NCBI GenBank assembly: GCA_017512985.1
Contig: JAFWEJ010000008.1
Coordinates: forward strand, 124,001 to 188,000
DNA: 64,000 nt
Direction of reading: 5' to 3'
From: Clostridia bacterium
GTDB lineage: Bacteria > Bacillota > Clostridia > Christensenellales > Aristaeellaceae
A model generated the notes under the pieces. That model ran no database searches. It worked only from the letters and a program-made list of their open reading frames with translations, and had not been told where the DNA came from. Both the position numbers and the translations under genes were made by a program. How positions within the stretch are numbered: the stretch's first letter is position 1; each line of letters begins with the position of its first letter. Positions 7,087 to 22,821 of this stretch are shown here, piece by piece.

Positions 7087-7115
7087 AATTCTCAATTCAC
7101 AATTCATAATTAATT
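7080..7115. repeat. AT-rich dispersed repeat (TTCATAATTCA family), copy 1
   Basis: Two AATTCATAATT blocks separated by CTCAATTCAC. Related segments occur at 10375, 38161, 40046, 45302 and 56451. This copy supplies the start codon of the DUF951 gene. Confidence 0.6.
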
Positions 7116-7200
7116 GTCTTTGTACAAATCATAATGAAATGAAGACCGTTGAATTGTTCAATGATTATGATAATTCAGAGGGACGGAAAAATCAACGATG

Positions 7201-7229
7201 TTTACAGAAGGGGAAGTCTTTGGTAAAAT
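7201..7229 (+). promoter_or_regulatory. Promoter of murI
   Basis: TTTACA (7201-7206), 17-nt spacer, TAAAAT (7224-7229), 36 nt upstream of the chosen murI ATG. Confidence 0.65.
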
Positions 7230-7265
7230 AGCATGAAATCAGGACCAGACCAAAGAGGAACGAAG

Positions 7266-8030: not shown

Positions 8031-8143
8031 CAGCCGGTGTTCAGGCGCCGGATACAAATACGCGGGGTCCTGTCGATAAATGTATCGTTATGGTATATAT
8101 GTGACCGAAAAAGCAATTTTAGCTTTCTTTTTGCCATTCAATA

Positions 8144-8152
8144 TGGTATAAT
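8144..8152 (+). promoter_or_regulatory. Extended -10 promoter of the EF-G-like gene
   Basis: TGGTATAAT, an extended -10 element with TATAAT at 8147-8152. There is no good -35 at 17 nt. It lies 87 nt upstream of the start codon. The remaining part of 8031-8239 shows only a small CGATAAATGTATCG hairpin at about 8074. Confidence 0.55.
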
Positions 8153-8239
8153 TTCTTTCAGCTTTTGATTCCCGCTTCTCGCGAATTCGGAAAGCGGGAT
8201 GATCTTCGTTGTGAAGAAAAATGAGGAGGAATGACAACC

Positions 8240-10327
8240 ATGGCTGAATTCGCAACCGGAAACATTCGCAATATCGCCCTCATGGGGCATGGCAGCGAGG
8301 GCAAAACCACGCTGACCGAGGCAATGCTCTTCGCTGCCGGCATGACTGACCGTCAGGGCAAGGTGGAAGACGGCACCACCGTTTCCGACTTTGATCCGGA
8401 GGAGAAAAAGCGCGGCTTTTCCATCAGCGCTTCCTACGCTCCGATCCCCTGGGCGGGAAAAGTGATCAATGTGATCGACGTTCCCGGATATTTTGACTTC
8501 ATCGGCGAACAGATGGGGCCCCTGCGCGTGATCGAGACCGCGGTGATCGTGGTCGGCGGCGTGAACGGCCTGAGCGTCGGCGCTGAAAAGGCCTGGGACA
8601 ACGCGGGCAAAGCCGGCCTGGGCCGGATGTTCATCGTGAACCAGATGGACCGCGAGCACGCGAACTTTGAAAAGGTCGTTGCCCAGCTGCGGGAAAAGTA
8701 CGGCCCCAGCGTGGTGCCGATCCTGCTGCCCTTGGGACAGGGCGCCGGTTTCAAGGGCGTCGTGAACGTCCTGGAAAAGAAAGCCTATGAAGGCTCCTAC
8801 AAGAAGAGCACGGAAGTGCCCATGCCCGCCGACCTGGAAGGCGAAGTCAATGATGCTTATGAAGCCCTGACTGAGCAGGCGGCTTCCGCGGACGAAGAAC
8901 TGATGGAAAAGTACTTCGAAAACGGCGAACTGAGCCATGAAGACGTTATGACCGGCTTTATCAAGGGCATGAAAGACGGCAGCATCGTTCCCGTAGTGGC
9001 CTGCTCCGCCCTGACCGGCGTGGGCATCGCCCGCACGCTGGACCTGATCGCCAAGTATCTTCCTTCTCCCGGCCACGAAGGCCTGACCCAGAAGGGCAAG
9101 AACCCGAAGACCGGCGAAGAAGTCGAACGTGCCTGCAAGGACGACCAGCCCTTCTCCGCGCTGGTATTCAAGACCATCGCTGACCCGTTCGTCGGCAAGC
9201 TGAGCCTGTTCCGGATCTTCTCCGGCGTGCTCACTCCCGCCACCCCCCTGTATAACGCCAACAAGGAAAAAGCTGAAAAGGCCGGCGGCCTGTTCACCCT
9301 GAAGGGCAACAAGCAGACCAACGTGGACAAGCTGCACGCGGGCGATATCGGCGCCCTGGCGAAGCTGCAGATCACCTCCACCGGCGATACGCTGTGCGAC
9401 CCGAACAACCCGGTCATCTATCCCGAGATCGAGTTCCCGGCTCCCTGCATCTCCAAGGCTGTGTTCGCTGCGAAGCAGGGCGAGGAAGACAAGGTCTTCA
9501 GCGGCCTGAACCGCCTGGCGGAAGAAGATCCTTCCATTAAGATCGAAAAGAACGCCGAGACCACCGAGACCGAGCTGAGCGGCCAGGGTGAAATGCACCT
9601 GGAAGTCATCAAGAACAAGCTGGCCTCCAAGTTCGGCGCCAACGCCGTGCTGCAGGATCCCAAGATCCCGTACCGTGAGACCATCCGCAAGACCGTGAAG
9701 GTCCAGGGCCGCCACAAGAAGCAGACCGGCGGTCACGGCCAGTTCGGCGACGTGTGGATCGAGTTCAGCCCCATTACCGACAGCGACGCGGAATTCGAGT
9801 TTGAAGACGCGGTCGTCGGCGGCGTGGTGCCGAGGAACTTCATCCCCAGCGTTGAAAAGGGACTGCGTGAGAACATCGTGAAGGGCGTTCTCGCCGGATA
9901 TCCGATGGTTCACCTGCACGCGAAGCTGTATGACGGATCCTACCATCCGGTCGACTCCTCCGAAATGGCCTTCAAGACGGCTGCCCGTATCGCCTACAAG
10001 AAGGGCTGCATGGACGCCAGCCCCGTCCTGCTCGAGCCGATCATGCACGTTGAAGTGCTGGTTCCCAACGAGTACATGGGCGACATCATGGGCGACATGA
10101 ACAAGCGCCGCGGCCGGATCATGGGTATGAACCAGGTGAACGGCATGCAGCAGCTGGAAGCGGAAGCGCCCCTGGCTGAAATGTTCAAATACGCCACCGA
10201 CCTGCGGTCCATGACACAGGCGAGGGGATCCTTCTCCATGAAGTTTGAACGCTATGAAGAAGTGCCCCAGGCTGAAGCCCAGAAGATCATTGCCAACGCG
10301 AAGATCGAAGAGGACGAGGAAGAATAA
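8240..10327 (+). CDS. Elongation factor G-like translational GTPase (EF-G paralogue)
   Basis: The 695-residue protein has the five-domain layout of EF-G. The G1 P-loop is GHGSEGKT (about 18-25) instead of the AHIDAGKT of canonical FusA; G3 is DVPGYFDF and G4 is NQMD. Domain IV (GGHGQFGDVWIEF) and the C-terminal domain (HVEVLVPNEYMGDIMGDMNKRRGRI) are present. This divergent P-loop marks the EF-G2 / FusA-like group found beside the real EF-G in many Firmicutes and actinobacteria; its role in translation is not settled. It stands alone, without rpsL, rpsG or tuf, as expected for a paralogue. I chose the ATG at 8240, 10 nt after GGAGG; the ATG at 8231 is only 2 nt after it. A perfect terminator follows. 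Confidence 0.9.
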   Translation: MAEFATGNIRNIALMGHGSEGKTTLTEAMLFAAGMTDRQGKVEDGTTVSDFDPEEKKRGFSISASYAPIPWAGKVINVIDVPGYFDFIGEQMGPLRVIETAVIVVGGVNGLSVGAEKAWDNAGKAGLGRMFIVNQMDREHANFEKVVAQLREKYGPSVVPILLPLGQGAGFKGVVNVLEKKAYEGSYKKSTEVPMPADLEGEVNDAYEALTEQAASADEELMEKYFENGELSHEDVMTGFIKGMKDGSIVPVVACSALTGVGIARTLDLIAKYLPSPGHEGLTQKGKNPKTGEEVERACKDDQPFSALVFKTIADPFVGKLSLFRIFSGVLTPATPLYNANKEKAEKAGGLFTLKGNKQTNVDKLHAGDIGALAKLQITSTGDTLCDPNNPVIYPEIEFPAPCISKAVFAAKQGEEDKVFSGLNRLAEEDPSIKIEKNAETTETELSGQGEMHLEVIKNKLASKFGANAVLQDPKIPYRETIRKTVKVQGRHKKQTGGHGQFGDVWIEFSPITDSDAEFEFEDAVVGGVVPRNFIPSVEKGLRENIVKGVLAGYPMVHLHAKLYDGSYHPVDSSEMAFKTAARIAYKKGCMDASPVLLEPIMHVEVLVPNEYMGDIMGDMNKRRGRIMGMNQVNGMQQLEAEAPLAEMFKYATDLRSMTQARGSFSMKFERYEEVPQAEAQKIIANAKIEEDEEE

Positions 10328-10336
10328 TACGCAATC

Positions 10337-10369
10337 AAAAATGCCGCTGCTTAAGCAGCGGCATTTTTG
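10337..10369 (+). terminator. Intrinsic terminator of the EF-G-like gene
   Basis: The stem ATGCCGCTGCT / AGCAGCGGCAT (10341-10364) is flanked by AAAAA and TTTTTG, so it can work in both directions. It starts 10 nt past the stop codon. Confidence 0.9.
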
Positions 10370-10374
10370 ATTGC

Positions 10375-10407
10375 AATGAATAATGAATAATGAACAATGA
10401 ATATTGA
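10375..10407. repeat. AT-rich dispersed repeat, copy 2
   Basis: Tandem AATGAATAATGAA units, the reverse complement of an ATTCATTATTCA series and related to the TTCATAATTCA copies elsewhere. It lies between two terminators of convergent genes. Confidence 0.5.
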
Positions 10408-10427
10408 TTTGTTACGGAGGGCATGAG

Positions 10428-10455
10428 AAAAGCCCCGCTGCCGAAGCAGCGGGGC
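10428..10455 (-). terminator. Intrinsic terminator of the FMN/FAD reductase gene
   Basis: A 10-bp GC-rich stem (GCCCCGCTGC / GCAGCGGGGC, 10432-10455) with TTCG loop on the minus strand is followed by TTTTCTC. It begins 28 nt past the stop. Confidence 0.9.
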
Positions 10456-10483
10456 GAGGAAACGATGGATGGTATGATTGCTG

Positions 10484-12994
10484 TTATTCAGCTTCCTTGG
10501 CGATGGTGTTCGCGGCGGTACGGCCGGAAACGAAGATCTCAACGATCGCGTTGCCGCCCAGACGGTTACCGCCGTGGATACCGCCGGTGACTTCGCCCGC
10601 GGCGTAGAGGCCGGGGATGATGTTGCCTTCCGCATCCAGCACATGGCGTTCTGTATCAACAACGATACCGCCCATGGTGTGGTGGGTGGATGGAGCCATC
10701 AGGCGGACGAACACTTCGGTGTTGTCCAGGTCATAGGTTTCGGGCAGGTACTTGCCGTTATCATCCTTTTGGGTGGTGCCGATCGGATAGTCACAGATGT
10801 TCTTACCCACTTCGCCGAAGTCGAAAGGTTCGTTGTTGGCCTTCGCGATAGCAGCCTGGTCATAGGCCCTGACGGTCTCCAGCATGGTGGCAGCATCGAC
10901 CTGCACGTTCGCGAATTCGGGCTTCGCAAGCACTTTGCTCAACTCTTCTTCATTGCACTTGATCTTGTAGTAGCGGCCTTCAAACTCATTCTGGGTCAGC
11001 TGCGCGGTGGGCGGGCCTGGAATGTGCTGGTCAGCACGGAAGATCTCGATGAAGACGCCGGGAGTGCCATTCAGTTCCATACCGTTACGGAACTCAGCCA
11101 GGGACAGCACGTCACGCTCGGAACCTTCGTCCACGAAGCGCTTGCCGGTGATGGGGCTGATCCAGCAGGCATAGGTGCCGCTGCCGAAGGCCAGGTTGCC
11201 GTTGTCAACCCAGGAGATGGGCATCAGCTGGGTGAAGCCCAGGCCCGTTGTGGCGGCGCCGGCTTTTTCAGCCATAGCGATACCGTCGCCCATCTGGGAA
11301 GAACGGTTGGTGGTCTTGGTGGACTTGGTCAGGTATTGGGTGTCCCAATAGATATTGTTTTCCAGAACCATATCGATGTTGGCCGCATAACCGCCGGTCG
11401 CCAGCACGACGCCCTTGGTGGCATGAGCGGTCACTTCAGTGCCGTCAAACTTCACGGCCTTCACGCCGGTGACTTTGCCGTCCTCGATGATCAGGTCGGT
11501 GGCGGTGGTGCGCAGCATGATATCGTTGCCTTCCTTGGCCAGGATGGTCGCCTTGGGTCCAACGAAATAGGTGCCCCAGTTGCCGTCCTGCGGCAGGTAC
11601 TCATTTTCACGATACCACAGCGCGCCGATCAGGGTGTTCTGCTGATCTTCAAGGAAGTGAGCGCCCTGGTCTTCCAGCCACTCCTTCAGACCCTGACCGC
11701 CTTCGATGAAGTTAGTAGCCAGAGCGCGGTCGCTGTAGATCCACTGGGTCTTGTCCGCGCTCTGGCGCAGGCCGCCGTAGTAGGTCTGGAAGATATGCAG
11801 GTTAATGGTGGAGAAGAGGGTTAGCTCGGATTCCGGAATGCCGTCATCCAGCTTGGGCTGCGCCCAGGCCAGGTATGCCTCGATCTCTTTCTTCAGCGCC
11901 TGCAGCACGGGCAGGTATTCAGCGTGCACGCCGTGCTTTGCCAGCTCCTTATCGTCGCCGGCAACGAATTCGTTGGTCTTGTAGTACTCTTCATCGAAGG
12001 GCGCTTCGTTCCAGCTCAGGATGTTCTTCAGAACGTCAATGCAGCCCGGCCGGGACATATACTTGTTGTAGGTTTCGCCGTTGTACTTATAGATGCCGGT
12101 CGTGGCATCCGGATTCTCCGGCTCCCAGACCAGGTAAGGCATCACGGACTGGTACTGACCGCCGGAAACAAGCGTGTTGCCGCCGACTTCAGCGTTCTTT
12201 TCGATCACGAGCACGGAGTTGCCGTTCTGGGTGGCCTGGGCGGCCGCGGCAATACCGGCACCGCCGGCACCGACGACGACGACATCGGCGGTCACTTCGA
12301 TGGGTTCGCCGGCCTTGTGCTCAACTTTGTTGGCCTTGAAGGCGTCGAGGTTGGTGCAGCCGGCCTGCTCCGCGGCATCGTTCACGATGGCCTTCAGGGC
12401 ACGGCTGGTGAAGGTGGCACCGGAAACCATGTCCACGCCGGAGCCATTGGCTTCGAGCATCTCGGGGATCATGATGTCATAGGCAAGGTCGCCCACATGA
12501 GCGGTTTCAACGGAGGCAACTTTCTCGATACCCGTGAGGGCGGTTTCGGAGAAGGTGACCTTCATGGTGACGTTTCCGTTGTAGCCATATGCTGTGGCCT
12601 CATACTCACCAGCGGTAAAAGCCAGGGGAGCGTCTGCTGCGGGAGCAACTTCAGCGCCGGAAGCAAGTTCAAGCGCTTTGGCAGCGGCTTCCTTTACGGC
12701 GTTGCTTGTCAGGGTAGCGCCTGATACGCCATCGATCTCAGCGGACTGCTTTTCCTTGATCTGGGCAGCCAGAGTCTCAAGCGCAGCGCCGCCGATGGTG
12801 GGCGTTTCATTGTCGCCGGTGATAACGACATCAGTAATGGCGCTGTCATCCACGGTGATCACAACTTTGACGTCCGGGCCATAGCCTTGGGCCGATGCAT
12901 CGTATGTACCGGGAGTATAGCCGTCCGCGGACGCGAAGGCCATGCAGCCGAGAACCAGGCAAAGGCTCAGGAGAAGGGAAACAAGTTTCTTCAT
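10484..12994 (-). CDS. Secreted flavoprotein reductase with two FMN-binding domains and a FAD_binding_2 fumarate-reductase-like domain
   Basis: The 836-residue product has a signal peptide (1-23; ASA-DG looks like a signal peptidase I site, although VLGC at 14-17 could be a weak lipobox). Two FMN_bind domains follow, each with the ApbE flavinylation motif D-x-x-S-G-A-T (T94 and T194 are the predicted FMN-linked residues). From about residue 236 there is a FAD_binding_2 domain (VVVVGAGGAGIAAAA). Catalytic residues of the fumarate reductase family are recognisable: THHTMGG near the C-terminus, HGGNRLGGNA, and SERD, which matches the proton-relay Arg region. The protein would pass electrons from membrane carriers through two covalent FMNs to FAD and then to an external acceptor such as fumarate or a related enoate; the substrate cannot be told from sequence. 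The start follows GGAGGAACCCT. ApbE is encoded 0.9 kb away. Confidence 0.92.
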   Translation of the reverse strand: MKKLVSLLLSLCLVLGCMAFASADGYTPGTYDASAQGYGPDVKVVITVDDSAITDVVITGDNETPTIGGAALETLAAQIKEKQSAEIDGVSGATLTSNAVKEAAAKALELASGAEVAPAADAPLAFTAGEYEATAYGYNGNVTMKVTFSETALTGIEKVASVETAHVGDLAYDIMIPEMLEANGSGVDMVSGATFTSRALKAIVNDAAEQAGCTNLDAFKANKVEHKAGEPIEVTADVVVVGAGGAGIAAAAQATQNGNSVLVIEKNAEVGGNTLVSGGQYQSVMPYLVWEPENPDATTGIYKYNGETYNKYMSRPGCIDVLKNILSWNEAPFDEEYYKTNEFVAGDDKELAKHGVHAEYLPVLQALKKEIEAYLAWAQPKLDDGIPESELTLFSTINLHIFQTYYGGLRQSADKTQWIYSDRALATNFIEGGQGLKEWLEDQGAHFLEDQQNTLIGALWYRENEYLPQDGNWGTYFVGPKATILAKEGNDIMLRTTATDLIIEDGKVTGVKAVKFDGTEVTAHATKGVVLATGGYAANIDMVLENNIYWDTQYLTKSTKTTNRSSQMGDGIAMAEKAGAATTGLGFTQLMPISWVDNGNLAFGSGTYACWISPITGKRFVDEGSERDVLSLAEFRNGMELNGTPGVFIEIFRADQHIPGPPTAQLTQNEFEGRYYKIKCNEEELSKVLAKPEFANVQVDAATMLETVRAYDQAAIAKANNEPFDFGEVGKNICDYPIGTTQKDDNGKYLPETYDLDNTEVFVRLMAPSTHHTMGGIVVDTERHVLDAEGNIIPGLYAAGEVTGGIHGGNRLGGNAIVEIFVSGRTAANTIAKEAE

Positions 12995-13070
12995 AGGGTT
13001 CCTCCATCCTTTCCAATGTATATAATTGGGTGCTGCAAATACAAAGATCTGCAACAGATATACTACTCCC

Positions 13071-13085
13071 GCGGAAACGTTTGCG
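13071..13085. promoter_or_regulatory. Palindromic operator-like site, cre/LacI-family type
   Basis: GCGGAAACGTTTGCG is an imperfect palindrome centred on AAACGTTT, resembling CcpA cre or other LacI-family sites. It lies between the reductase gene and the divergent Gx-apbE operon, 77 nt upstream of the reductase start. A half-similar CGGAAACGATAC follows at 13091. Confidence 0.3.
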
Positions 13086-13163
13086 TCAATCGGAAACGAT
13101 ACCAATTTCATGCTGTTTTTTGCAATTTTTCTTTCTGTACGTACAGGATCGTTTGCCATCAGG

Positions 13164-13192
13164 TTGCCTGAAAACAGTGAAACGGATATAAT
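13164..13192 (+). promoter_or_regulatory. Promoter of the Gx-apbE-NusG_II operon
   Basis: TTGCCT (13164-13169), 17-nt spacer, perfect TATAAT (13187-13192), 37 nt before the GTG start. Confidence 0.8.
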
Positions 13193-13229
13193 AAGTTGGT
13201 CATAAACCGAAGGAAGAGGAGGGGAGCCC

Positions 13230-13925
13230 GTGAACGCCACGACGCAGAAAATCGCCCGGTTCGGCCTGCTGACAGCGCTGGCGCTGGTCCTGGGACTGAT
13301 GGACAGGGCAATTCCCCTGTCTGTGCTGCTGGGCGGTGCGCTTCCCGGGATCAAACTGGGCCTGGCGAACACGGTTCTTCTGTATGCAGTTTATCTGATG
13401 GACTGGAAAAGCAGCATTCTGCTGATGCTGACAAAGGTGCTGCTTTCCGGACTGATTTACGGTTCCCTGTCCGCGATTATGTTCAGCCTGGCGGGCGGAG
13501 CCCTGAGCCTGGCTGTCATGCTCCTGGTCCGGAAGAATCCGGTGGGCGGCGCGCTTGGCATGGGTATACTGGCCATTACTGCGGACGCTGTCCTGCTGGG
13601 GACTCATCCGAATCCGAAGGGACAGGTCCTGCTGTTTGTGATCCTGATCGCCCTGGGCGCCGCGGCCTGCTTTGTTCTCTGTTTCCTCATGAAACGCGGA
13701 ACGCTCTGCAGAATACAGGGCACCTCTGTGGCCGGCGCGGCGGCGCATAACGTGGGGCAGGTTGCCGCAGCATTCTTCATTGTCCGCACACCGATGCTCC
13801 TGAATACGTACCTCCCGGCGCTGATCGGCGTCGGTATCATTGTCGGATGCCTGACAGGCATTGTTACGGAACGGGTGCTGAAAGCGCTGAAACTGAAACC
13901 CACGAACGGGGATATACAGATATGA
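13230..13925 (+). CDS. Gx transporter / heptaprenyl diphosphate synthase component I family membrane protein (EetB-like)
   Basis: This is a 231-residue polytopic membrane protein with about six helices. It belongs by eye to the Hpre_diP_synt_I family, whose S-component-like fold has the phrase GALPGIKLGLANTVLL near residue 36. In Listeria a protein of this family (EetB, as I recall) belongs to the flavin-based extracellular electron transfer locus. Here it is the first gene of an operon with apbE and a NusG-II protein and faces a secreted FMN/FAD reductase, so a role in moving electrons or a quinone-like carrier at the membrane is inferred. The start is GTG after AGGAGGGGAGCCC. Its last codons overlap apbE by 4 nt. 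Confidence 0.82.
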   Translation: MNATTQKIARFGLLTALALVLGLMDRAIPLSVLLGGALPGIKLGLANTVLLYAVYLMDWKSSILLMLTKVLLSGLIYGSLSAIMFSLAGGALSLAVMLLVRKNPVGGALGMGILAITADAVLLGTHPNPKGQVLLFVILIALGAAACFVLCFLMKRGTLCRIQGTSVAGAAAHNVGQVAAAFFIVRTPMLLNTYLPALIGVGIIVGCLTGIVTERVLKALKLKPTNGDIQI

Positions 13926-14908
13926 AGAAAAAGAAACTGGCCGGTATCCTGCTGGCACTCCTGCTGCTTTGCGGCGGATGCGCGGTAAAAAAAGATCTTC
14001 CGAAACTTTCCGAAATCGGATTCTATCTGGATACAGTTATTACACTGACCGCATATGTTGAGGACGGGCAGATTCTGAAGGACGCACTGGAAGAATGCGG
14101 ACGGTATGAACAGAAGCTGTCCCGGACGATTGAGGGCAGCGACGTCTGGAAGATCAACCACGCGGAAGGGCAGCCTGTGGAAGTGTCAGACGATACGGTC
14201 GCGATCCTGCAGTGCGCGGGGAAGATCAGCGGCATGACAGGCGGAGCCTTTGACGTGACGATCGCCCCGGTTTCCACAATCTGGGATTTCACCTCCGGCA
14301 AGGCAGAACTGCCGGACGCGGAAGCAATCGCCCGGGCCGTCGAACTGGTGGACTACACAAAGATTACGCTGAACGGAAACACCGTTGCCCTGCCGGAAGG
14401 AATGATGATCGACCTGGGCGGTATTGCCAAAGGATACATTGCCGACAGGATTAAAGAATACCTGGAAAAGAGAGGCGTAAAACACGCAATCCTTTCCTTC
14501 GGCGGCAATGTCGTGGCAATCGGCGACAAACCTGACGGGACCGCATGGAAGGTCGGGATCCAGGATATCGACGGCAAGACGGGCGACTATATGATGGTTT
14601 CCCGGAACAGCGACGGATCTTCCGTGACCAGCGGGATCTATGAACGCGGGTTTGACCTGGACGGCGTCCGGTATCATCACCTGCTCTCCACGGAAAACGG
14701 GTGGCCGGTTCAGAACGAGCTTGCCGCGGTCACGATTTTCTCGAAAAGCTCCATGGAGGGCGACGCGCTGTCCACCGCTGCTTTTGTGCTGGGAACAGAG
14801 GAAGGCCGGAAGCTGATCAACAGCCTGGACGGAATTGAGGCCGTGTTTATTTCCAGGGACCGGGCTGTAACGTACTCCGCCGGTGCGGAAGCATACATCA
14901 TAAAGTGA
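13922..14908 (+). CDS. apbE: FAD:protein FMN transferase ApbE (lipoprotein)
   Basis: This 328-residue enzyme transfers FMN from FAD to a Thr in SGAT motifs of exported proteins. A lipoprotein signal ends in LLCGGC, giving C20 as the lipidated residue, so it acts on the outer face of the membrane. ApbE signatures include FYLDTVITL, GGAFDVTIAPV, MIDLGGIAKGYIAD, ILSFGGNVVAIG and the metal-site region STAAFVLG near the C-terminus. It sits in an operon with the Gx-family gene (ATGA overlap) and the NusG-II gene (10-nt gap). Its obvious client is the divergent reductase, which has two target Thr sites. Confidence 0.95.
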   Translation: MKKKKLAGILLALLLLCGGCAVKKDLPKLSEIGFYLDTVITLTAYVEDGQILKDALEECGRYEQKLSRTIEGSDVWKINHAEGQPVEVSDDTVAILQCAGKISGMTGGAFDVTIAPVSTIWDFTSGKAELPDAEAIARAVELVDYTKITLNGNTVALPEGMMIDLGGIAKGYIADRIKEYLEKRGVKHAILSFGGNVVAIGDKPDGTAWKVGIQDIDGKTGDYMMVSRNSDGSSVTSGIYERGFDLDGVRYHHLLSTENGWPVQNELAAVTIFSKSSMEGDALSTAAFVLGTEEGRKLINSLDGIEAVFISRDRAVTYSAGAEAYIIK

Positions 14909-14918
14909 GCGATAAAGC

Positions 14919-15509
14919 ATGAAATTCAGGAAGAAATGGATGATATTGATTGCCGTGCTTGCGGTAATCGCAGTTGTTCTCTGGTTCCTGCCGGATCTGA
15001 TCGGACAGGGAAACCGTCATCAGGCTGTTTCTGAACGGGCCGGATCGAAAAAAGAAGAGCCGGCCGCCCGTCCCGAAGGGACGGATAAACCGGGAAAAAT
15101 GGCTGAACCGGACGGGAACGACGCTTCGGGCAAAGATGAAACAACACAGGAACAGCCATTCCTGGTTCAGATCACAGACGACGATCCGTCCATCGCCTAT
15201 GTCCTGGTAAGGATGCAGAATGCTGCCGGCCTGCTGCCGCTTCCTTTGGAAGGAGAGTATACCAGGACAATCCGACAGAAAATGGCAGACGGATCAGAGG
15301 CGGTCAACGTGCTGCACCTGACGTCAAACGGTGTGTGGATGGAAGAATCCAACTGCGAAGGACATGACTGTATCAACGAGGGAGAGGTTACGCTGGAGAA
15401 CAGGGAAGAACGCGTTCTCTGGAACATGATCATCTGCCTGCCGCATCAGCTGTCCCTGGAACTGATTACCAGGGAGGAAGCGCTTCAGATGATAGGGCAG
15501 AAAAAATAA
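14919..15509 (+). CDS. NusG domain II-containing membrane-anchored protein (EetA-like)
   Basis: The 196-residue protein has an N-terminal membrane helix (about 7-24), a low-complexity charged linker (30-85) and a C-terminal NusG_II domain (about 105-190). The domain is recognised by GLLPLPLEGEYTRTI, NVLHLTSNGVWMEESNCEGHDC and NMIICLPHQLSLEL. The two Cys in C-x4-C are conserved in this family. Despite the name it is not a transcription factor: it is extracytoplasmic and usually partners Gx-family and ApbE genes, as EetA does in electron transfer loci. No FMN-binding motif is present in the protein itself. Confidence 0.85.
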   Translation: MKFRKKWMILIAVLAVIAVVLWFLPDLIGQGNRHQAVSERAGSKKEEPAARPEGTDKPGKMAEPDGNDASGKDETTQEQPFLVQITDDDPSIAYVLVRMQNAAGLLPLPLEGEYTRTIRQKMADGSEAVNVLHLTSNGVWMEESNCEGHDCINEGEVTLENREERVLWNMIICLPHQLSLELITREEALQMIGQKK

Positions 15510-15573
15510 TTTTCATGAAAAACTGAATTATTCAGCTTCCTGATTCGTCTAATACTCCGGGAGGAGATAGAAA

Positions 15574-16977
15574 ATGAAGAAAATACTTGTGCTTGTCCTG
15601 TTGGCTGCCTGTCTGCTGTATACTGCCGCAGGCGCGTCGCCTGCCATCACGGACGGTGAAACGACCGGCTGGATCGGAGAGAGCAATTTTCTGTTCCTGC
15701 AGAATTCCGGCGGAATGACAGCGCAGCTGTCCATGGAGATTAACGATGTGCTCCTGTTCACGGAAGACGAGCTTCTTTGCCTGGCGGGAAACCGGCAGAT
15801 CATTGCGGTGAAGAAGAACGGATCCGGCAGCAGGATTGTTGAGAACGCGGATCTCAGCCTGCTGAACGAACAGCAGCTGACGCCGGAAGACGGGGTGCTG
15901 AGCCTGCAGGGCCGGCAGATTTCCACGTCAGCATGCGCGGCGGCGACTGACGGCAAGTATATATACTATGTGGAGCAGAACGGCCCGGAGTCTTTTGTTC
16001 TGCGTACGGCAACCGTCCAGGAGCATGCCGGAACAGTCATGCCCCGGAGCAGAGATGAGTATGCGCTGGCGTGTTCGGGCAGATATGTTGCGGAACCGCT
16101 GAGCATGACAGTAACCCGTGAAGCGCTTGTACTAACCGGGAAGAACCACCAGGTTACGGTTATGAACCTGCTGACCGGAGAAAGCACCGTCTGCCACGCC
16201 ACCAGCGAACAGACAGCGGCAGCGTGCATGCAGGGCGGCGTGCTTTACCGCTATCAGATAACCGAAGACCAGCGTTACATCCTGGAATCGGCAACGGCCC
16301 TGGCGGCACCCACTCCGGTTCCCACACAGACTCCCTCGCCGACTCCCGCGCCCAGGCCGACGCCAACTCCGCACAGATATACGGATGACGACGGGACGAT
16401 CCATTACGGCGCATACGGAAGGACAGTCCGGAAGATCCAACAGAGGCTGCAGGATCTCGGCTATCCGATCACCAGGATTGATGGAAAATACGGTGATGAG
16501 ACCCAGCTGGCAATCAATCTGTTCTGTGACGCAATCCGGGTCAGGGAGCATAATTACATTACGAAGAGAGTGCAGAACAAGCTGTTTGCCAAGAACGCAC
16601 CGAATTATGATCCGTATCTCCCGCTGAAAGTGGGCGACCGGGGCGTAAGTGTTCTGTATATGCAGGCAAGGCTGAAAGAACTGGGATACAATCCGGGAAA
16701 GCTTGACGGCGTCTACGGCAAAAACACAGTTGCCGCGGTTGCGCTTTTCCAGAAAGACTTCGGCATAAAAATCGGGAAGAAGGAGAAACCCGGCGAAGTG
16801 GCTTCCCATGAGATGCTGGAGCTGCTGTATTCGCCTGATCCCAAGCCTTATCCCACAGTTACACCCACCGCGACTCCGACGGCGACTCCGACGGCAACGC
16901 CGACTCCGACGGCGACTCCGACGGCAACGCCGACTCCGACGCCGACTGTGCCGCCCGCGTCGCAGACCGATCTGTGA
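15574..16977 (+). CDS. Secreted protein with two peptidoglycan-binding domains and Thr-Pro repeats
   Basis: The 467-residue product has a signal peptide (1-22), a beta-rich N-terminal domain (about 25-245) that resembles a small propeller-type sensor, and a Pro-rich linker (TPVPTQTPSPTPAP). Two PG_binding_1 domains follow: GRTVRKIQQRLQDLGYP...DGKYGDET and RGVSVLYMQARLKELGYNPGKLDGVYGKNT. The C-terminus is TPTATPTAT repeats, likely a wall-spanning or glycosylated stretch. The start follows GGAGGAGATAGAAA. No hydrolase domain is visible, so it probably only binds the wall. Confidence 0.85.
   Translation: MKKILVLVLLAACLLYTAAGASPAITDGETTGWIGESNFLFLQNSGGMTAQLSMEINDVLLFTEDELLCLAGNRQIIAVKKNGSGSRIVENADLSLLNEQQLTPEDGVLSLQGRQISTSACAAATDGKYIYYVEQNGPESFVLRTATVQEHAGTVMPRSRDEYALACSGRYVAEPLSMTVTREALVLTGKNHQVTVMNLLTGESTVCHATSEQTAAACMQGGVLYRYQITEDQRYILESATALAAPTPVPTQTPSPTPAPRPTPTPHRYTDDDGTIHYGAYGRTVRKIQQRLQDLGYPITRIDGKYGDETQLAINLFCDAIRVREHNYITKRVQNKLFAKNAPNYDPYLPLKVGDRGVSVLYMQARLKELGYNPGKLDGVYGKNTVAAVALFQKDFGIKIGKKEKPGEVASHEMLELLYSPDPKPYPTVTPTATPTATPTATPTPTATPTATPTPTPTVPPASQTDL
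16866..16951 (+). repeat. Coding repeat of ACTCCGACGGC/ACGCCG units
   Basis: Near-perfect 6-12-bp units encode Thr-Pro-Thr-Ala at the C-terminus of the peptidoglycan-binding protein. Slippage would change length in steps of two residues and keep the frame. Confidence 0.7.
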
Positions 16978-16985
16978 TAAAACTC

Positions 16986-17021
16986 AAACAGCGGCTTCTT
17001 TCATTACAGAAGCCGCTGTTT
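16986..17021. terminator. Bidirectional terminator between convergent genes
   Basis: The stem AAACAGCGGCTTCT / AGAAGCCGCTGTTT (16986-16999 and 17008-17021) is followed on the plus strand by TTTCT. Its 8-nt loop contains the stop codon of the minus-strand FAD-dependent dehydrogenase gene. Confidence 0.85.
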
Positions 17022-18608
17022 TTCTATTGCCCTGAGAGCCGCGGTGATGCCGTCTGCAGCCGCTGAAACGATGCCGCCTGCATAACCGGCGCCTTCTCCG
17101 ACAGGATACAGTCCGCGTATGTCCTCTGCTTCCCCGAGCGCGTTGCGGAGAATACGGACGGGGGAAGATGAACGGGTTTCAGGACCGGTCAGGACAGCTT
17201 CCGGATCCGCGAATCCGGTCAGCTGGGCGTTCATTGCCCGAATGCCCTTCTTCAGGTCTTCGATGATCCAGGCAGGAAGCACCGCGCGCAGGTCTGCCGG
17301 AACCACGCCGGGCCGGTAAGAGGGAAGGATTTCCCCGAAAGCGGAAGATCCGCGGCCTTCCAGAAAATCACCGACTCGCTGCGCCGGGGCGATAAAACCG
17401 CCGCCGCCTGCCCGGAAAGCAGCCTTTTCAATGCTTCGCTGAAGAATAAAGCCGGCCAGCGGATGCTCGTCACCGAAATCTTCCGGCCTGACTCCGACCA
17501 GCAAGGCGGAATTGCTGTTCCATCCGTCCCTGGCGTGGAAACTCATGCCATTGGTGACAATTCCGCCCGGCTGGGACGCAGCGGCAATCACTTCACCGCC
17601 GGGGCACATACAGAATGTGTAGACACCCCGCCCGTCCGGAGTGTGGCAGATGAGTTTATAGGAAGCCGCGCCCAGCGCGGGATGGCCGGCAAAGGCACCG
17701 TACTGGGACCGGTCAATGAAAGCCCGCGTATGTTCGATCCGCACGCCCATGGCAAACGGTTTCTGTTCCATGCGAAGCCCCTGGCTGAACAGGGACTGCA
17801 CTGTATCCCTCGCGGAATGACCGATGCAGAGCAGGATCGTATCCGTCAGGAATTCCCGGCGGGTTCCTTTACAGGAGAGGACAGCGCCTTCGATATGGCC
17901 GCCCCGGAGAATCAGTTCTTCCAGCCGGGTTTCAAAAAGGACAGTACCGCCAAGGCTTATGATTTCATTCCGGATGGATGAGACGACGCCTTTCAGGCGG
18001 TCGGTACCGATATGCGGTTTCTGGTCAATGAGGATTTCTTCCGGGGCTCCGTGAGCCACAAAAGTTTCCAGAATATGCCTGACATGCGGGCTTTTGATGC
18101 CGCAGGTCAGCTTGCCGTCCGAGAACGCGCCTGCGCCGCCTTCCCCAAACTGGACATTTGAATCCGGATCCAGCCTGCCGCTTTCCTGCAGTGCAGAGAC
18201 ATCCTGCGTGCGGGCATCCACGGTTTTTCCGCGGTCAATGAGTACCGGGTTTGCGCCGGCCCGCGCAAGGGTAAGCGCCGCAAACAGGCCGGCGGGCCCC
18301 ATTCCCACCACGAGGGGCGGCCGGCCCGATTCAGGATTCGCAATGCGTGGCTCATAACTGTTTTTTTGATTATCAGAGACGCGTGAAAGATTCCTGTTAT
18401 GGCGTAAAGCTGAGTTTTCGTCTTTCAGGGAAAGATCCACAGACAGGACAAAATGGACGTTCTGCTTATCGCGGGCGTCAACGCTGCGGCGGGAGATACG
18501 GAAAAAAAACAGCTGATCGGGCGCCAGCCGGAGTTTTTTCAGCAGAACGGAACGGAGGGAGTCCTCCGTGTAATCCAGGGGCACATTCAGGTTGATCAGT
18601 CGGAGCAT
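17004..18608 (-). CDS. FAD-dependent dehydrogenase, uncharacterised family (K07137-like)
   Basis: The 534-residue cytoplasmic protein starts with a small alpha/beta domain (about 1-95, with RRSVDARDKQNVHFV) and continues with a dinucleotide-binding domain, PLVVGMGPAGLFAALTLARAG. The family motifs NVQFGEGGAGAFSDGKL, GVRIEHTRAFID and the C-terminal GEGAGYAGGIVSAAADG are clear. The reaction is not known; a role as an NAD(P)/FAD oxidoreductase is inferred. Its start overlaps truA by 13 nt and it ends the ecf operon. A shorter relative is encoded at 52493-53866. Confidence 0.85.
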   Translation of the reverse strand: MLRLINLNVPLDYTEDSLRSVLLKKLRLAPDQLFFFRISRRSVDARDKQNVHFVLSVDLSLKDENSALRHNRNLSRVSDNQKNSYEPRIANPESGRPPLVVGMGPAGLFAALTLARAGANPVLIDRGKTVDARTQDVSALQESGRLDPDSNVQFGEGGAGAFSDGKLTCGIKSPHVRHILETFVAHGAPEEILIDQKPHIGTDRLKGVVSSIRNEIISLGGTVLFETRLEELILRGGHIEGAVLSCKGTRREFLTDTILLCIGHSARDTVQSLFSQGLRMEQKPFAMGVRIEHTRAFIDRSQYGAFAGHPALGAASYKLICHTPDGRGVYTFCMCPGGEVIAAASQPGGIVTNGMSFHARDGWNSNSALLVGVRPEDFGDEHPLAGFILQRSIEKAAFRAGGGGFIAPAQRVGDFLEGRGSSAFGEILPSYRPGVVPADLRAVLPAWIIEDLKKGIRAMNAQLTGFADPEAVLTGPETRSSSPVRILRNALGEAEDIRGLYPVGEGAGYAGGIVSAAADGITAALRAIEKQRLL

Positions 18609-19396
18609 GTCGTTTCTTCCTCATGCCAGCGTAAAGACGCGGGATCAGTGAACGCCTGATCGGGATAAAAGACTTTGGTCAGTTCAAGGCCGTGGGCAGG
18701 AGCGGTCATGCCGAGGGCAAGCCGGTCAAGCGTATCAAAAGCCCTTGTGAAAGCATCCGGGCAGAGTCTGCCCAGGCCGATCTCCGCAACGGTGCCGGCA
18801 ATGATCCGGACCATGTTGTACAGGAACGCGTCGCCGCTGACCGTCAGGGTCCATTCATTTCCGCTGACAGAAAGCTCCGCGGAACGAAGGGTGCGGACCG
18901 TGGTCTTCGCGGTGCCGCCGGCGGCCTGAAACGCCGCGAAATCATGGCTGCCGGGCAGGGTCAGCAGGGCCTCACGCACAGGCTTCTCATCCAGAGGGAC
19001 AGGGATATGCCAATGTGTGTTCCTGCGCATCGCGCTGCCATGACGGGCATTCCAGATCCTGTAGGTATAGATCTTGCCGGAGGTCAGGAAACGCGCGTGG
19101 AAACTTTCGGGGACCTCCCTGCCTTCCAGCACCCGGATATCCGGCGGGAGCATGGTGTTCAGCACAAAGGGATATTTATCCGGCGGGATCGGGCAGTCCG
19201 TATCAAAATGAACCTTCTGGTCCAGCGCGTGGACGCCGGCGTCGGTCCGTGAAGCACCGGTCACAGAGACCGGATGGCCGCAGGCAGAAGAAAGCGCCTC
19301 CTCCAGCACCTGCTGGACAGCCAGGCCGTTAATCTGGCGCTGCCAGCCGGCATAGGCGGTGCCGTCATATTCCACTGTCAGCAGGATCCGCTTCAA
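18596..19396 (-). CDS. truA: tRNA pseudouridine(38-40) synthase
   Basis: This 266-residue enzyme converts uridines 38-40 in the tRNA anticodon arm to pseudouridine. The catalytic Asp is D52 in GASRTDAGVHA; FHARF and the C-terminal FLYNMVRIIAGT are also present. The length is typical (about 245-270). It begins with a 4-nt ATGA overlap on ecfT, an arrangement that is common in Firmicutes where truA follows the ecf genes. Confidence 0.95.
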   Translation of the reverse strand: MKRILLTVEYDGTAYAGWQRQINGLAVQQVLEEALSSACGHPVSVTGASRTDAGVHALDQKVHFDTDCPIPPDKYPFVLNTMLPPDIRVLEGREVPESFHARFLTSGKIYTYRIWNARHGSAMRRNTHWHIPVPLDEKPVREALLTLPGSHDFAAFQAAGGTAKTTVRTLRSAELSVSGNEWTLTVSGDAFLYNMVRIIAGTVAEIGLGRLCPDAFTRAFDTLDRLALGMTAPAHGLELTKVFYPDQAFTDPASLRWHEEETTCSD

Positions 19397-20196
19397 AGGA
19401 ATATTCCCTCCAGTATGATCAGCGCGAGCAGCGCAGCCATAACGCCGCAGGCGATCCAGTCGTTCTTTGTGATTTTCAGGACGCGCAGACGCGTCCGGCC
19501 GTCCCCGCCGTGATAGCAGCGGCTTTCCATGGCCATGGCAAGGTCTCCCGCACGGCGGAACGCGCTGACAAACAGCGGGACCAGGAGCGGCACCATCGCT
19601 TTCGCGCGGGAGATCAGGTTTCCGCTTTCAAAATCTGCGCCGCGAGCCATCTGGGCTTTCATGATCTTATCCGTTTCCTCCAGCAGCGTCGGAATGAAAC
19701 GGAGGGCAATGGTCATCATCATGGCGAGCTCATGGGCAGGGAAATGGATTTTTTTCAGCGGTGTGAGCAGCAGCTCAATGCCGTCGGACAGGGAGACCGG
19801 GGAGGTGGTCAGGGTCAGCAGACTTGTGCCGATGACCAGGAAGACCAGCCGCAGGGAATAGAAGGCAGCCTGCAGGAAGCCTTCTTTCGTGATGCGTATG
19901 ATCCAGAATTCCACCCAGAGCGTGTCGCCGGCGGTGAAGAACAGATTCAGCAGGAAGGTCAGGATGATGATCAGGCGAAGCGGTTTCAGGCCGCGCAGCA
20001 GCATCCGGAAAGGCACATTGGCCAGCCGGGATGTCAGCCAGACGAAGCCCAGGATGAGCGCGTAACCGGCAAAGGTTTTCGCCATGAACACCGCGACGAT
20101 GAAAACGATCGTGAGGATCAGCTTGATCCGGGGATCCAGGCGGTGGACGCGGCTGTCCACGGGATAATACTGGCCCATGGTGATGTTGTTCAGCAC
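19393..20196 (-). CDS. ecfT: ECF transporter transmembrane component EcfT
   Basis: This 267-residue scaffold protein couples ATP hydrolysis by EcfA1/A2 to S components such as FolT. Several membrane helices are visible between residues 25 and 125, followed by a cytoplasmic coupling region with the two X-R-X motifs QMARGADF and MESRCYHGG that dock into the ATPases. A last helix ends the protein. The GTG at 20196 is chosen because it follows GGAGGGATCCGC; upstream residues in frame are not family-like. It overlaps ecfA2 by 7 nt. Confidence 0.93.
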   Translation of the reverse strand: MLNNITMGQYYPVDSRVHRLDPRIKLILTIVFIVAVFMAKTFAGYALILGFVWLTSRLANVPFRMLLRGLKPLRLIIILTFLLNLFFTAGDTLWVEFWIIRITKEGFLQAAFYSLRLVFLVIGTSLLTLTTSPVSLSDGIELLLTPLKKIHFPAHELAMMMTIALRFIPTLLEETDKIMKAQMARGADFESGNLISRAKAMVPLLVPLFVSAFRRAGDLAMAMESRCYHGGDGRTRLRVLKITKNDWIACGVMAALLALIILEGIFL

Positions 20197-21053
20197 GCGG
20201 ATCCCTCCTTCCAGAGGCGGAGCAGCTGTTCCTTCAGCTCTTCCGGCCTGAACAGGTCGGCGGGCAGATCGTAGCCTTTCGCGCGCAGACAGGCGCACAG
20301 ACGTGCGGCGTCCGGTACATCCAGCCCGATGGACGTCATCATATCCTCCCGGGAGAAAATATCCCTGGGCGTTCCTTCCGCGACGATCTTTCCTTCGCTC
20401 ATCACGACCAGGCGTGTGGCGAGGCGCGCCATATCATCCATACTGTGGGAGACCATGAGGATAGTGACATGCTCCCGGCCATGCAGTTCCTCCAGCATGG
20501 TGAGGATCTTGTCACGGCCCCGGGGATCCAGGCCGGCAGTGGGCTCGTCCAGAATCAGGACGGAGGGGCGCATGGCGAGGACGCCGGCGATGGCGACGCG
20601 GCGCATCTGGCCGCCGGAGAGCTCAAAGGGGCTCCGTTCGGCATATTTGTCATAGTCGAGATGAACGCAGTCCATTGCGTAGCGGACCCGCTCCTTGATA
20701 TCGTCTGCGGAGAGTCCCTGGTTTTTCGGACCGAAGGCGATGTCTTTCGCAACGGTTTCCTCAAAAAGCTGGTATTCAGGATACTGGAAGACCAGTCCGA
20801 TCCGCTGGCGCAGCGCGCGGCGGTTTACATGTTCGCCGTTCAGGTCTTCTCCGTCGATAAAGACCTGGCCGGATGTGGGTTTGAGGAGGCCGTTCAGATG
20901 CTGAACAAGGGTGGATTTTCCGCTGCCGGTATGGCCGATGATGCCGACAAACTCGCCGTCCTCAATGCGGAAGGAAACGTCGTCCAGGGCGACGGTGCGC
21001 AGGGCGCTGCCCTCGGAATAGCAATGCGTCAGGTGGCTTACTTCAATGGGCAC
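20190..21053 (-). CDS. ecfA2: ECF transporter ATP-binding protein EcfA2
   Basis: This 287-residue ATPase has Walker A GHTGSGKST (40-48), Q-loop VFQYPEYQLFE, signature ELSGGQMRR and Walker B VLILDEPTAGLDP. The phrase YPEYQLFEETV marks the A2 type. It pairs with EcfA1 below EcfT. Its start overlaps the end of ecfA1 by 16 nt. Confidence 0.93.
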   Translation of the reverse strand: MPIEVSHLTHCYSEGSALRTVALDDVSFRIEDGEFVGIIGHTGSGKSTLVQHLNGLLKPTSGQVFIDGEDLNGEHVNRRALRQRIGLVFQYPEYQLFEETVAKDIAFGPKNQGLSADDIKERVRYAMDCVHLDYDKYAERSPFELSGGQMRRVAIAGVLAMRPSVLILDEPTAGLDPRGRDKILTMLEELHGREHVTILMVSHSMDDMARLATRLVVMSEGKIVAEGTPRDIFSREDMMTSIGLDVPDAARLCACLRAKGYDLPADLFRPEELKEQLLRLWKEGSAC

Positions 21054-21883
21054 AGATTTTCCACCTCCTCCGCAAGTTCCTCCACGGTCAGGATTCCCGG
21101 GCGCAGCGGCATGCCGGCTTCGCGAAGTTCACCCGCAAGGGCTGTCATATGGGGAACGTCCAGGTGCATCTCCCGCATCTCGTCCACACGGTCAAAGACT
21201 TCAGCCGGCGTGCCGGAAAGGCGGATAACGCCGTCTGTGACGACAAGCACCCGGTCCGCAAGCGCCGCTTCTTCCATAAAATGCGTGATCCAGACGACTG
21301 TGATGCCTTTCTGCCGGTTCAGGGAACGAATCGTTTCAAGGACTTCTTTCCGTCCGGAGGGATCCAGCATGGCGGTCGCCTCATCCGCGATGATCACGGA
21401 TGGTTCCATGGCCAGGATTCCGGCGATCGCAACACGCTGTTTCTGGCCGCCGGACAGCATATGAGGCGCCTTATCCGCACAGGCGCTCATGCGGACGGCA
21501 GAAAGAGCGCTTTCAATGCGCGGGATCATCTCTTCCGTGGGAACCCCCAGGTTTTCCAGTCCGAAGGCAACGTCTTCCTTAACGACGGTCGCGACGATCT
21601 GATTGTCCGGATTCTGGAAAATCATACCGGCACGACGGCGGATTTCCCAGACGAGCTTCTCTTCCCGGGTGTTGTATCCGCAGACGACGACATTGCCTTC
21701 TGTCGGGATATACAGCGCGTTCAGCAGTTTTGCCAGGGTTGATTTTCCGGAACCGTTGTGGCCGAGCACAGCGACAAATTCGCCGGGCTGAATGACAGCG
21801 GATACGCCGGAAAGAGCAGGCGACGCCTGCTCTTCGTAGGAATAAGATACATTGTTCAGCTGAACGCGGGAATCAGAACGCAT
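21038..21883 (-). CDS. ecfA1: ECF transporter ATP-binding protein EcfA1
   Basis: This 281-residue ATPase has Walker A GHNGSGKST (41-49), Q-loop IFQNPDNQIVATVV (the A1 type), signature LSGGQKQR and Walker B VIIADEATAMLDP. The ATG at 21883 is preceded by GGAGGTTTCATATTA; its A is also the last base of the preceding TAA stop (TAATG). It is the shared energizing ATPase for all vitamin S components in the cell, including the FolT at 3.4 kb. Confidence 0.93.
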   Translation of the reverse strand: MRSDSRVQLNNVSYSYEEQASPALSGVSAVIQPGEFVAVLGHNGSGKSTLAKLLNALYIPTEGNVVVCGYNTREEKLVWEIRRRAGMIFQNPDNQIVATVVKEDVAFGLENLGVPTEEMIPRIESALSAVRMSACADKAPHMLSGGQKQRVAIAGILAMEPSVIIADEATAMLDPSGRKEVLETIRSLNRQKGITVVWITHFMEEAALADRVLVVTDGVIRLSGTPAEVFDRVDEMREMHLDVPHMTALAGELREAGMPLRPGILTVEELAEEVENLCPLK

Positions 21884-22821
21884 TAATATGAAACCTCCAT
21901 GTAATGGATCTGGGGGGAACAGAAGAGGCGGCCGGGCCAGACAGATGTCCCGACGCCCCGGGAAATGAGCAGGTCCACGCGGTTCTCCTTCAGCCATCCG
22001 CTCCTGTAGCGGTCAGGGACATCTTCATCCAGGCCGAGCAGGGGAGAGAAGAAGAGCATCTGGCCTCCGTGGGTGTGACCGAAAAGGCCCAGGTCGAACC
22101 AACCCAGGTTGCCGGACGCATCCGTTGCCAGCTGGGCATCAGGAATGATGGAAGGATTATGGCTGAGAAAAATGACATAATCCTTTGAAGAAACAGCGCG
22201 GGAGACCGCTTTCACGTCCGGATTGCCGGTCTGCAGGTCATCCACACCGGCAATATAGATCTGCCGGGCGCCGATGTGCACGGTCTGGGTTTTGTTTACC
22301 AGCGGGGTCACGCCTGCGTTGGCCATGGCGTCCGTCAGCTGGGTACAGGTGAAGTCTGAATCCCCGCGGTCCGTTTCCCCGATGACGCCGAATATCCCGT
22401 AGCGGGAGTGCAGCGTTCCCTTTTTCTGCAAAGACTGGAAAAAAGCGATCGCTGACTGGTTGTCTGTGGCATAATCGCCGCCGAAGAGGATCAGGTCCGG
22501 ACGGAGGTTGTTGATTCTTGCGACCAGGCGGCTGAGATCCCCGTCTGAGAACCAGAAGCCGTAGTGGATGTCGCTCAGGTAAACAATGCGGAGATTGTTG
22601 GCTTCGGCAGGGAGATCGTCCGCTTTCAGCTTTACTTTTTCTGTCTGGAGCAGGCGCGCCTCGATGAAAGGATAGCAGAAGAGCAGGACAGCCAGAACAG
22701 CCAGAACAATTATGCCGAGCCTGCGGCGGCGGTTTTTCACCTGGTGCTTTCCGCGGCGGAAGGAAGAAGAGGAGGACTGCCACGAAGCGGACGAAACATG
22801 TTTGCCGCGGTAGGTATTCAT
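21883..22821 (-). CDS. Membrane-anchored metallophosphoesterase (YkuE-like)
   Basis: The 312-residue product has a Ser/Arg-rich cytoplasmic N-terminus, one membrane helix (about 38-56) and a calcineurin-like phosphoesterase domain outside. Metal-binding motifs are YLSDIHYG, FGGDYATDN, FLSHNPS and FGHTHGGQ. The usual GNHD motif is replaced by GETDRGDS, so the acid/base His after GN is missing or shifted and activity should not be assumed. The start is the ATG at 22821 after AAGGAGATGGCAGCGA. It leads the ecf-truA operon; a link in function is not obvious. Confidence 0.85.
   Translation of the reverse strand: MNTYRGKHVSSASWQSSSSSFRRGKHQVKNRRRRLGIIVLAVLAVLLFCYPFIEARLLQTEKVKLKADDLPAEANNLRIVYLSDIHYGFWFSDGDLSRLVARINNLRPDLILFGGDYATDNQSAIAFFQSLQKKGTLHSRYGIFGVIGETDRGDSDFTCTQLTDAMANAGVTPLVNKTQTVHIGARQIYIAGVDDLQTGNPDVKAVSRAVSSKDYVIFLSHNPSIIPDAQLATDASGNLGWFDLGLFGHTHGGQMLFFSPLLGLDEDVPDRYRSGWLKENRVDLLISRGVGTSVWPGRLFCSPQIHYMEVSY

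Follow-up and report, generated by a model that had tools for sequence, protein, structure and literature searches.

The stretch of DNA analysed here, 64,000 nucleotides long and referred to below as the window, comprises positions 124001-188000 of contig 9 in a draft genome of a Clostridia bacterium (2.63 Mb, 89.67% complete). The system in question is a gene for a secreted, fumarate-reductase-like flavoenzyme together with three genes that diverge from it across 235 bases, encoding a membrane protein of the EetB family (PF07456, or Gx), an ApbE flavin transferase and an EetA-like protein with a NusG domain II (NusG_II). The original prediction, whose placing of all four genes was confirmed (Table 1), took them for a compact module for flavin-based electron transfer outside the cytoplasm. 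The explanation that on balance seems probable is a different one: that the flavoenzyme would be a secreted terminal reductase for an enoate other than fumarate or urocanate, the divergent operon a set of genes for flavin maturation, and the Rnf complex, encoded elsewhere in the genome, the electron donor.

Table 1 Features of the window discussed in the text (FMN, flavin mononucleotide; FAD, flavin adenine dinucleotide; ECF, energy-coupling factor).
Feature	Position in window	Strand	Domains or basis
Secreted fumarate-reductase-like flavoenzyme, 836 aa	10484..12994	minus	signal peptide, FMN_bind 1 (T94), FMN_bind 2 (T194), FAD_binding_2
EetB-family (PF07456, Gx) membrane protein, predicted ECF-S-type FAD exporter subunit	13230..13925	plus	Pfam 6.7e-28
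ApbE flavin transferase, N-terminal signal, possible lipobox (by eye)	13922..14908	plus	Pfam 1.9e-85
NusG domain II (EetA-like) protein, N-terminal hydrophobic stretch (by eye)	14919..15509	plus	NusG_II 1.3e-8
ecfT, ecfA2, ecfA1, adjoining truA	19393..21997	minus	Pfam for ecfT and ecfA2; ecfA1 by eye
Promoter-like TTGCCT-17-TATAAT, eetB-apbE-eetA operon	13164..13192	plus	pattern and alignment
Promoter-like TTGACG-18-TAGTAT, reductase	13060..13089	minus	pattern and alignment
Terminator-like hairpin 3' of reductase	10331..10374	minus	

The reductase is taken to start at an ATG, giving 836 residues; the longer open reading frame that begins with GTG (962 residues) is judged to begin too early, since by eye it contains an internal start resembling a signal peptide, MKKLVSLLLSLCLVLG. 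Pfam finds two FMN_bind domains (7e-28) and a FAD_binding_2 domain (9.7e-54), and the SGAT motifs make T94 and T194 the candidate flavinylation threonines. For comparison 55 loci were examined, 26 from near relatives selected with a bait and 29 from a survey of the family; orthologs of at least 50% identity are present at 54 of them, and removal of sequences at least 98% identical left 50 that are non-redundant. T194 is kept in all 50 and T94 in 47, the other three (L079, with a degenerate motif, among them) having Ser. When N-terminal flavinylation motifs are counted with a strict regular expression there are two in 45 of the 54 orthologs, one in six and three in three, and since that pattern overlooks some domains these counts may overstate the variation in flavin number. 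The motifs of the reductase, which include HHTMGG, NRLGGN and SERD (beginning at 771, 810 and 625, respectively), are not due to chance, since they are kept by the orthologs at 54 of the 55 loci. The two intact SGAT sites that had been predicted are thus borne out at exactly their positions, and are conserved in orthologs; judging from these motifs the enzyme is very probably doubly flavinylated, at T94 and T194, and would probably carry three flavins in all. At one locus (L033, 6866-11878, of which L087 is a near-duplicate) a frame of 1,671 residues combines one reductase-like unit, 33% identical, with most of the ortholog of the window's reductase, the end of which reads in a different frame.

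The best matches of the reductase in the PDB are UrdA and FccA, and its active site was mapped by profile alignment to these two, ortholog positions that fall in gaps being set aside. The numbers H365, H504 and R544 used here for FccA match the positions printed for its chain. All three catalytic residues are kept: the proton-donor Arg (FccA Arg402, UrdA 411) is R627, conserved in 49/49 aligned orthologs, the hinge His (FccA His504, UrdA 520) is H771 (47/47), and the Arg that clamps the carboxylate (FccA Arg544, UrdA 560) is R811 (46/46). The residues that recognise fumarate are not: H365, T377 and E378 of FccA correspond to M591, F603 and G604, while the proton-path residue Arg381 falls in an alignment gap. 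Nor are those that bind urocanate in UrdA, Y373 being again M591 and Asp388 falling in a gap; Arg390 of UrdA falls in a gap as well, and Glu177 corresponds to Q280 (for the roles of residues in both enzymes see PMC7921117). The replacements are themselves conserved among the 50 non-redundant orthologs, gaps aside (M591 in 48/49, F603 in 47/49, G604 in 49/49), and equally so among the 46 that are near full length (45, with one gap, 45 and 46, respectively). The earlier statement that the active-site residues of fumarate reductase are retained is therefore correct as far as HHTMGG, NRLGGN and SERD are concerned, which UrdA also shares, and incorrect for the fumarate-specific ones; a comparison of the substrate pocket with those of FccA and UrdA, which had also been proposed, divides in the same way when made by alignment, the catalytic residues agreeing and those that recognise fumarate or urocanate differing.

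A further difference from both enzymes is that the region of about residues 285-412 is conserved and some 100 residues longer, FccA having only 14 residues, and UrdA only 26, between profile positions 278 and about 392-413. Identity of the orthologs to the window's reductase averages 73% over residues 285-412, compared with 44% for FMN domain 1, and a search of PDB sequences with the 145-residue insertion region gave no match at E up to 10. That the distal pocket departs in this way from those of FccA and UrdA suggests that the hydride acceptor is an alpha,beta-unsaturated carboxylate with something other than a carboxylate or an imidazole at its distal end; most likely, then, on the evidence of the aligned residues, the enzyme would reduce an unsaturated carboxylate other than fumarate or urocanate, with a distal group that may be apolar or aromatic. 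In such a mechanism electrons would enter at the covalent FMNs on T94 and T194 and pass to the FAD and then to the C=C bond, R627 would act as the acid catalyst, H771 and R811 would hold the carboxylate, and the distal pocket formed by Q280, M591, F603 and G604 would be neutral or apolar (L459 and W460 are mapped tentatively only). The prediction that a secreted FAD reductase could reduce an organic acceptor outside the membrane is accordingly supported, since orthologs conserve both FMN sites as well as a pocket unlike that of fumarate reductases. As for clues to the substrate from neighbouring genes, no common catabolic or transport gene was seen at seven loci (L013, L014, L019, L022, L025, L029, L033), whose open reading frame lists were inspected by eye and without a Pfam scan.

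Two other reductases of the same genome may be mentioned here. The one on contig 10, a different paralog (the C10 reductase), keeps by eye the fumarate set HP..TE..R. On contig 16 (L039, about 8900-11100; G000:C16) there is another double-FMN reductase-like protein, with STCGGLEV, by eye, at the position of HHTMGG; here the hinge His appears to have been lost, which would imply some other chemistry or an enzyme that is not a carboxylate reductase.

The divergent operon is best interpreted in the light of work on Listeria, where EetB binds FAD and serves as S subunit in the ECF transporter through which FAD is exported for ApbE, and where deletion of eetA left extracellular electron transfer unchanged, an earlier transposon effect being put down to possible polarity (PMC9973259). 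Since the Listeria EetB exports FAD and eetA is dispensable, the operon is best read as machinery for FAD export and FMN attachment. In the window, as in the Listeria exporter (EetB-FmnA-EcfA-EcfA', with FmnB as the ApbE protein; PMC9973259), a PF07456 gene stands beside apbE, as is characteristic of EetB-type exporters, and beside a NusG_II gene, and an EcfT/A/A' set is also present, which might energise the EetB-type S subunit. The differences are that the window's four genes include no separate ECF-T, Ndh2 or PplA gene, that the ECF set lies about 4 kb away beside truA, and that the PF07456 copy is a split Pfam match; the PF07456 profile gave no match among PDB sequences. By analogy with Listeria, the EetB-like protein, driven by EcfT/A/A', would export FAD, ApbE would move FMN from the exported FAD onto the threonines of the reductase, and the NusG_II protein may aid maturation. 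From synteny, a functional link between EetA and EetB has been suggested (PMC9973259).

It seems, moreover, that these genes are not there for the reductase alone. One gene each was found in the genome for PF07456, ApbE and NusG_II (the count for ApbE was exactly one in all 15 genomes tested), as against nine FMN_bind matches in six proteins, and for this reason the operon probably serves the whole cell, as what would be a maturation kit for the reductase and the other flavinylated proteins. The six comprise the window's reductase, an RnfD-RnfG fusion, a multi-FMN cytochrome protein, two more FAD_binding_2 reductases and an FtsX/MacB-like permease; all have other domains, so that none is a stand-alone PplA-like protein, and in this 89.67% complete genome the predicted lack of PplA holds. 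In the permease, of ABC type (L007, 826-2280, minus strand; G000:C17), the FMN_bind domain has a TGAT motif and lies between the MacB-core and FtsX domains; the words FtsX and MacB are absent from the main texts of two flavinylation papers. A second, small NusG_II match occurs between the reductase and PF07456 genes at 11 of the 26 bait-selected loci (L015, L017, L021, L023, L024, L027, L028, L030, L031, L032, L034) and also at L126, and at L122 (G052) PF07456 is accompanied by such a small match with neither reductase nor ApbE within the 16 kb examined.

How far the arrangement is conserved depends on where one looks. Among the 26 bait-selected loci, PF07456 and ApbE genes accompany the reductase at 20, with a NusG_II match at 19 of these (at the other, L010, ApbE is cut off by the end of the contig, while at L021 the small NusG_II gene is the only one). 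The arrangement is divergent at 19 of these 20 loci, L014 with a 3.2 kb gap among them, and tandem at L013. Of the six loci without the operon, L019 is uninformative, its contig ending 2.3 kb upstream, while the upstream DNA available amounts to 3.4 kb at L022, 6.1 kb at L029, 3.3 kb at L035 (where the reductase is a 30% paralog) and 10 kb at both L025 and L033. The family survey was an even draw of 150 genomes, counted by hand from tables, in which a genome was taken to bear the reductase if the matches listed included one that covered 250 residues or more at 50% identity or better, shorter or weaker matches being dropped; 35 genomes qualified, whereas at E 0.001 alone 135 genomes match, for the most part through other paralogs. 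PF07456 was found in 135 of the 150 genomes, including 33 of the 35 with the reductase, but lies within about 5 kb of it in 11 of the 35, a figure that contig breaks make a lower bound. Five of those 11 belong to the window's genus (seven genomes surveyed, two of them without the reductase), five to a second genus and one elsewhere. The association thus looks lineage-specific, and the expectation that these neighbours would be conserved together in relatives largely fails outside two genera.

Where the electrons come from is a separate matter. Of 15 genomes tested, 12, the window's included, gave no match to a UbiA-type quinone prenyltransferase, with 14/14 controls positive (no search was aimed at Ndh2), which makes a quinone pool unlikely in the window's genome, though not in every genome that bears the reductase. 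What that genome does have, on contig 10 (L036, 6865-17128; G000:C10:44000-63999), is an Rnf cluster comprising RnfC, an RnfD-G fusion, RnfE, RnfA and RnfB (RnfC and RnfD-G being assigned by Pfam). On the 3' side of RnfB there follows a protein of 1024 residues that combines FMN_bind domains with repeats resembling FMN_bind (by eye) and with a cytochrome c552 (NrfA) part containing one CXXCK and four CXXCH, and then ResB and CcsA; Rnf and this protein together are a possible route from NADH or ferredoxin to nitrite. The description of the system as being without cytochromes is consequently true of the four genes and untrue of the genome. NrfA-like sequence is present in 17 of 24 chosen Rnf loci; it follows RnfB in 16 of them and precedes RnfC in the other. 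Of the seven loci that lack it, two are truncated by the end of a contig. In a congener (G117; L127, 3764-6688, minus strand) the Rnf cluster contains a fusion of FMN_bind, FAD_binding_2 and NrfA, 974 residues long, whose reductase part is 81% identical to the C10 reductase and keeps the fumarate set HP, TE, R (by eye), and which adjoins a 493-residue protein with four FMN_bind domains; at L144 a distant reductase homolog, 28% identical to the C10 reductase, lies upstream of RnfC. Rnf with a multi-flavin, multiheme RnfG in Christensenellales has been proposed as a possible second electron outlet (Meheust et al., PMC8238504). Since no UbiA-type prenyltransferase was found in the window's genome and relatives encode reductases and FMN proteins with Rnf, Rnf is the likeliest donor for the extracytosolic reductases, and most likely electrons, from NADH or ferredoxin, would reach the window's reductase from it by way of RnfG-type FMN domains and without quinones. 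The mere co-occurrence of the two was considered as proof of coupling and rejected: all 26 of the relatives' genomes have RnfD, but so do 133 of the 150 in the family survey, so that the presence of Rnf is by itself uninformative.

Three other explanations have to be weighed against this one. That the four genes form a self-contained electron-transfer system, with the Gx and NusG_II proteins carrying electrons across the membrane, has in its favour that the genes are neighbours here and at most of the bait-selected loci, as counted above; it is nevertheless very improbable, since EetB is an FAD-binding exporter subunit and eetA is dispensable in Listeria, neither gene has a domain for a redox cofactor according to Pfam, and PF07456, seldom close to the reductase outside two genera, is present in 102 of the 115 genomes that lack it. 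On published function and distribution the idea of an electron conduit through these two proteins, and with it that of a compact module, was rejected. Scarcely better is the case for a plain fumarate or urocanate reductase: although the catalytic residues are kept, UrdA and FccA are the closest structures, and the best NCBIfam match is the flavocytochrome c family TIGR01813 (at 218 bits, below the cut-off of 285), the substrate-recognising residues are replaced by others that are conserved in orthologs, while the C10 reductase already supplies the genome with the fumarate set. Fumarate reductase identity was rejected on the pocket residues.

A donor other than Rnf (a type II NADH dehydrogenase, a quinone or a soluble mediator) must be taken more seriously, though it too seems unlikely. 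The flavinylated fumarate reductase of L. monocytogenes and the urocanate reductase of S. oneidensis are thought to be fed by chain components encoded elsewhere (PMC8238504), and G138, which bears the reductase, has a UbiA match; as against this, most genomes tested, the window's among them, gave no such match, Rnf is present, and relatives encode FMN-domain proteins, and at 2 of the 24 loci reductases, together with it. It must be remembered, however, that several observations weigh against the Rnf-fed enoate reductase favoured here. UbiA was above the cut-off in two of the 15 genomes and below it in a third, and the reductase bearers with a match are G138 (above) and G154 (below); the Rnf-linked reductases at 2 of 24 loci are other paralogs and not of the window's subfamily; RnfD is found in 33 of 35 genomes with the reductase and in 100 of 115 without; the Ser at T94 in three of 50 orthologs means that the first FMN may be dispensable; alignment is the sole basis of the substrate class; and at 89.67% completeness absences from the genome are provisional. 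More tentative still, and to be regarded as rather less probable than not, is a broader extension of the same explanation, in which, throughout a family of gut Clostridia that seem for the most part to lack quinones, Rnf would be a quinone-free respiratory hub whose FMN wires feed several extracytosolic terminal reductases, namely an NrfA-like c552, fumarate-type reductases and the double-FMN reductase (the last probably acting on an apolar enoate, e.g. a plant phenylpropenoate), one FAD-export/ApbE operon maturing them all.

Comparison with known systems shows how much of this is already in print. UrdA of Shewanella oneidensis (PDB 6t85-6t88) is likewise an extracytosolic protein with FMN_bind and FAD_binding_2 domains, but has one FMN domain where the window's reductase has two, and the latter probably has no quinone route. 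FrdA of Listeria monocytogenes, which contains FMN_bind, and Shewanella FccA are also of the secreted fumarate-reductase type (the differences in residues and FMN domains were established by alignment with FccA, not FrdA). The electron path in Listeria runs through Ndh2. It also uses demethylmenaquinone (PMC9973259), whereas the window's genome has neither a UbiA match nor a PplA-like stand-alone FMN_bind lipoprotein. Among the proteins described by Meheust et al. in 2021 are multi-FMN proteins, fumarate-reductase-like domains and, in Christensenellales, RnfG with a multiheme domain (PMC8238504). The four-gene set, for which the original prediction knew of no description, is thus of a familiar kind: 3,328 genomes combine eetB with eetA and 2,169 combine it with apbE (PMC9973259), FMN_bind is combined with a fumarate-reductase-like domain in 3,070 proteins (PMC8238504), and the class, multi-flavinylated proteins and eetB-apbE operons have all been published. 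The passages and sections of PMC8238504 that were consulted mention neither the window's reductase subfamily nor any fusion of a fumarate-type reductase to NrfA associated with Rnf, and in the open-access literature searched no description was found of the subfamily, its substrate or the reductase-NrfA fusion with Rnf. If the explanation favoured here is true, Clostridia of the rumen and gut that would be taken for fermenters could be respiring organic acids by way of an Rnf-based, quinone-free chain, the acceptor of a conserved reductase subfamily would be an overlooked electron sink in the rumen, and EetB, EetA and ApbE neighbours would mark flavin export and attachment and not an electron path.

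Finally, the non-coding features of the locus deserve brief mention. A tRNA search of the window and an Rfam search of positions 7000-22000 gave no matches. Five promoter-like sites were found in the region, compared with 2.4 in shuffled sequences; the reductase and the operon each have one (Table 1). In alignments of seven intergenic regions from chosen near relatives, the TATAAT and TTGC of the operon's site are invariant in all seven, as is GTCAA, the complement of most of the -35 box of the reductase. Just upstream of that box, at 13068-13098, lies a palindromic sequence, AAACGTTT, which by eye is present in some but not all of the aligned relatives, and which we take to resemble a LacI/CcpA operator.

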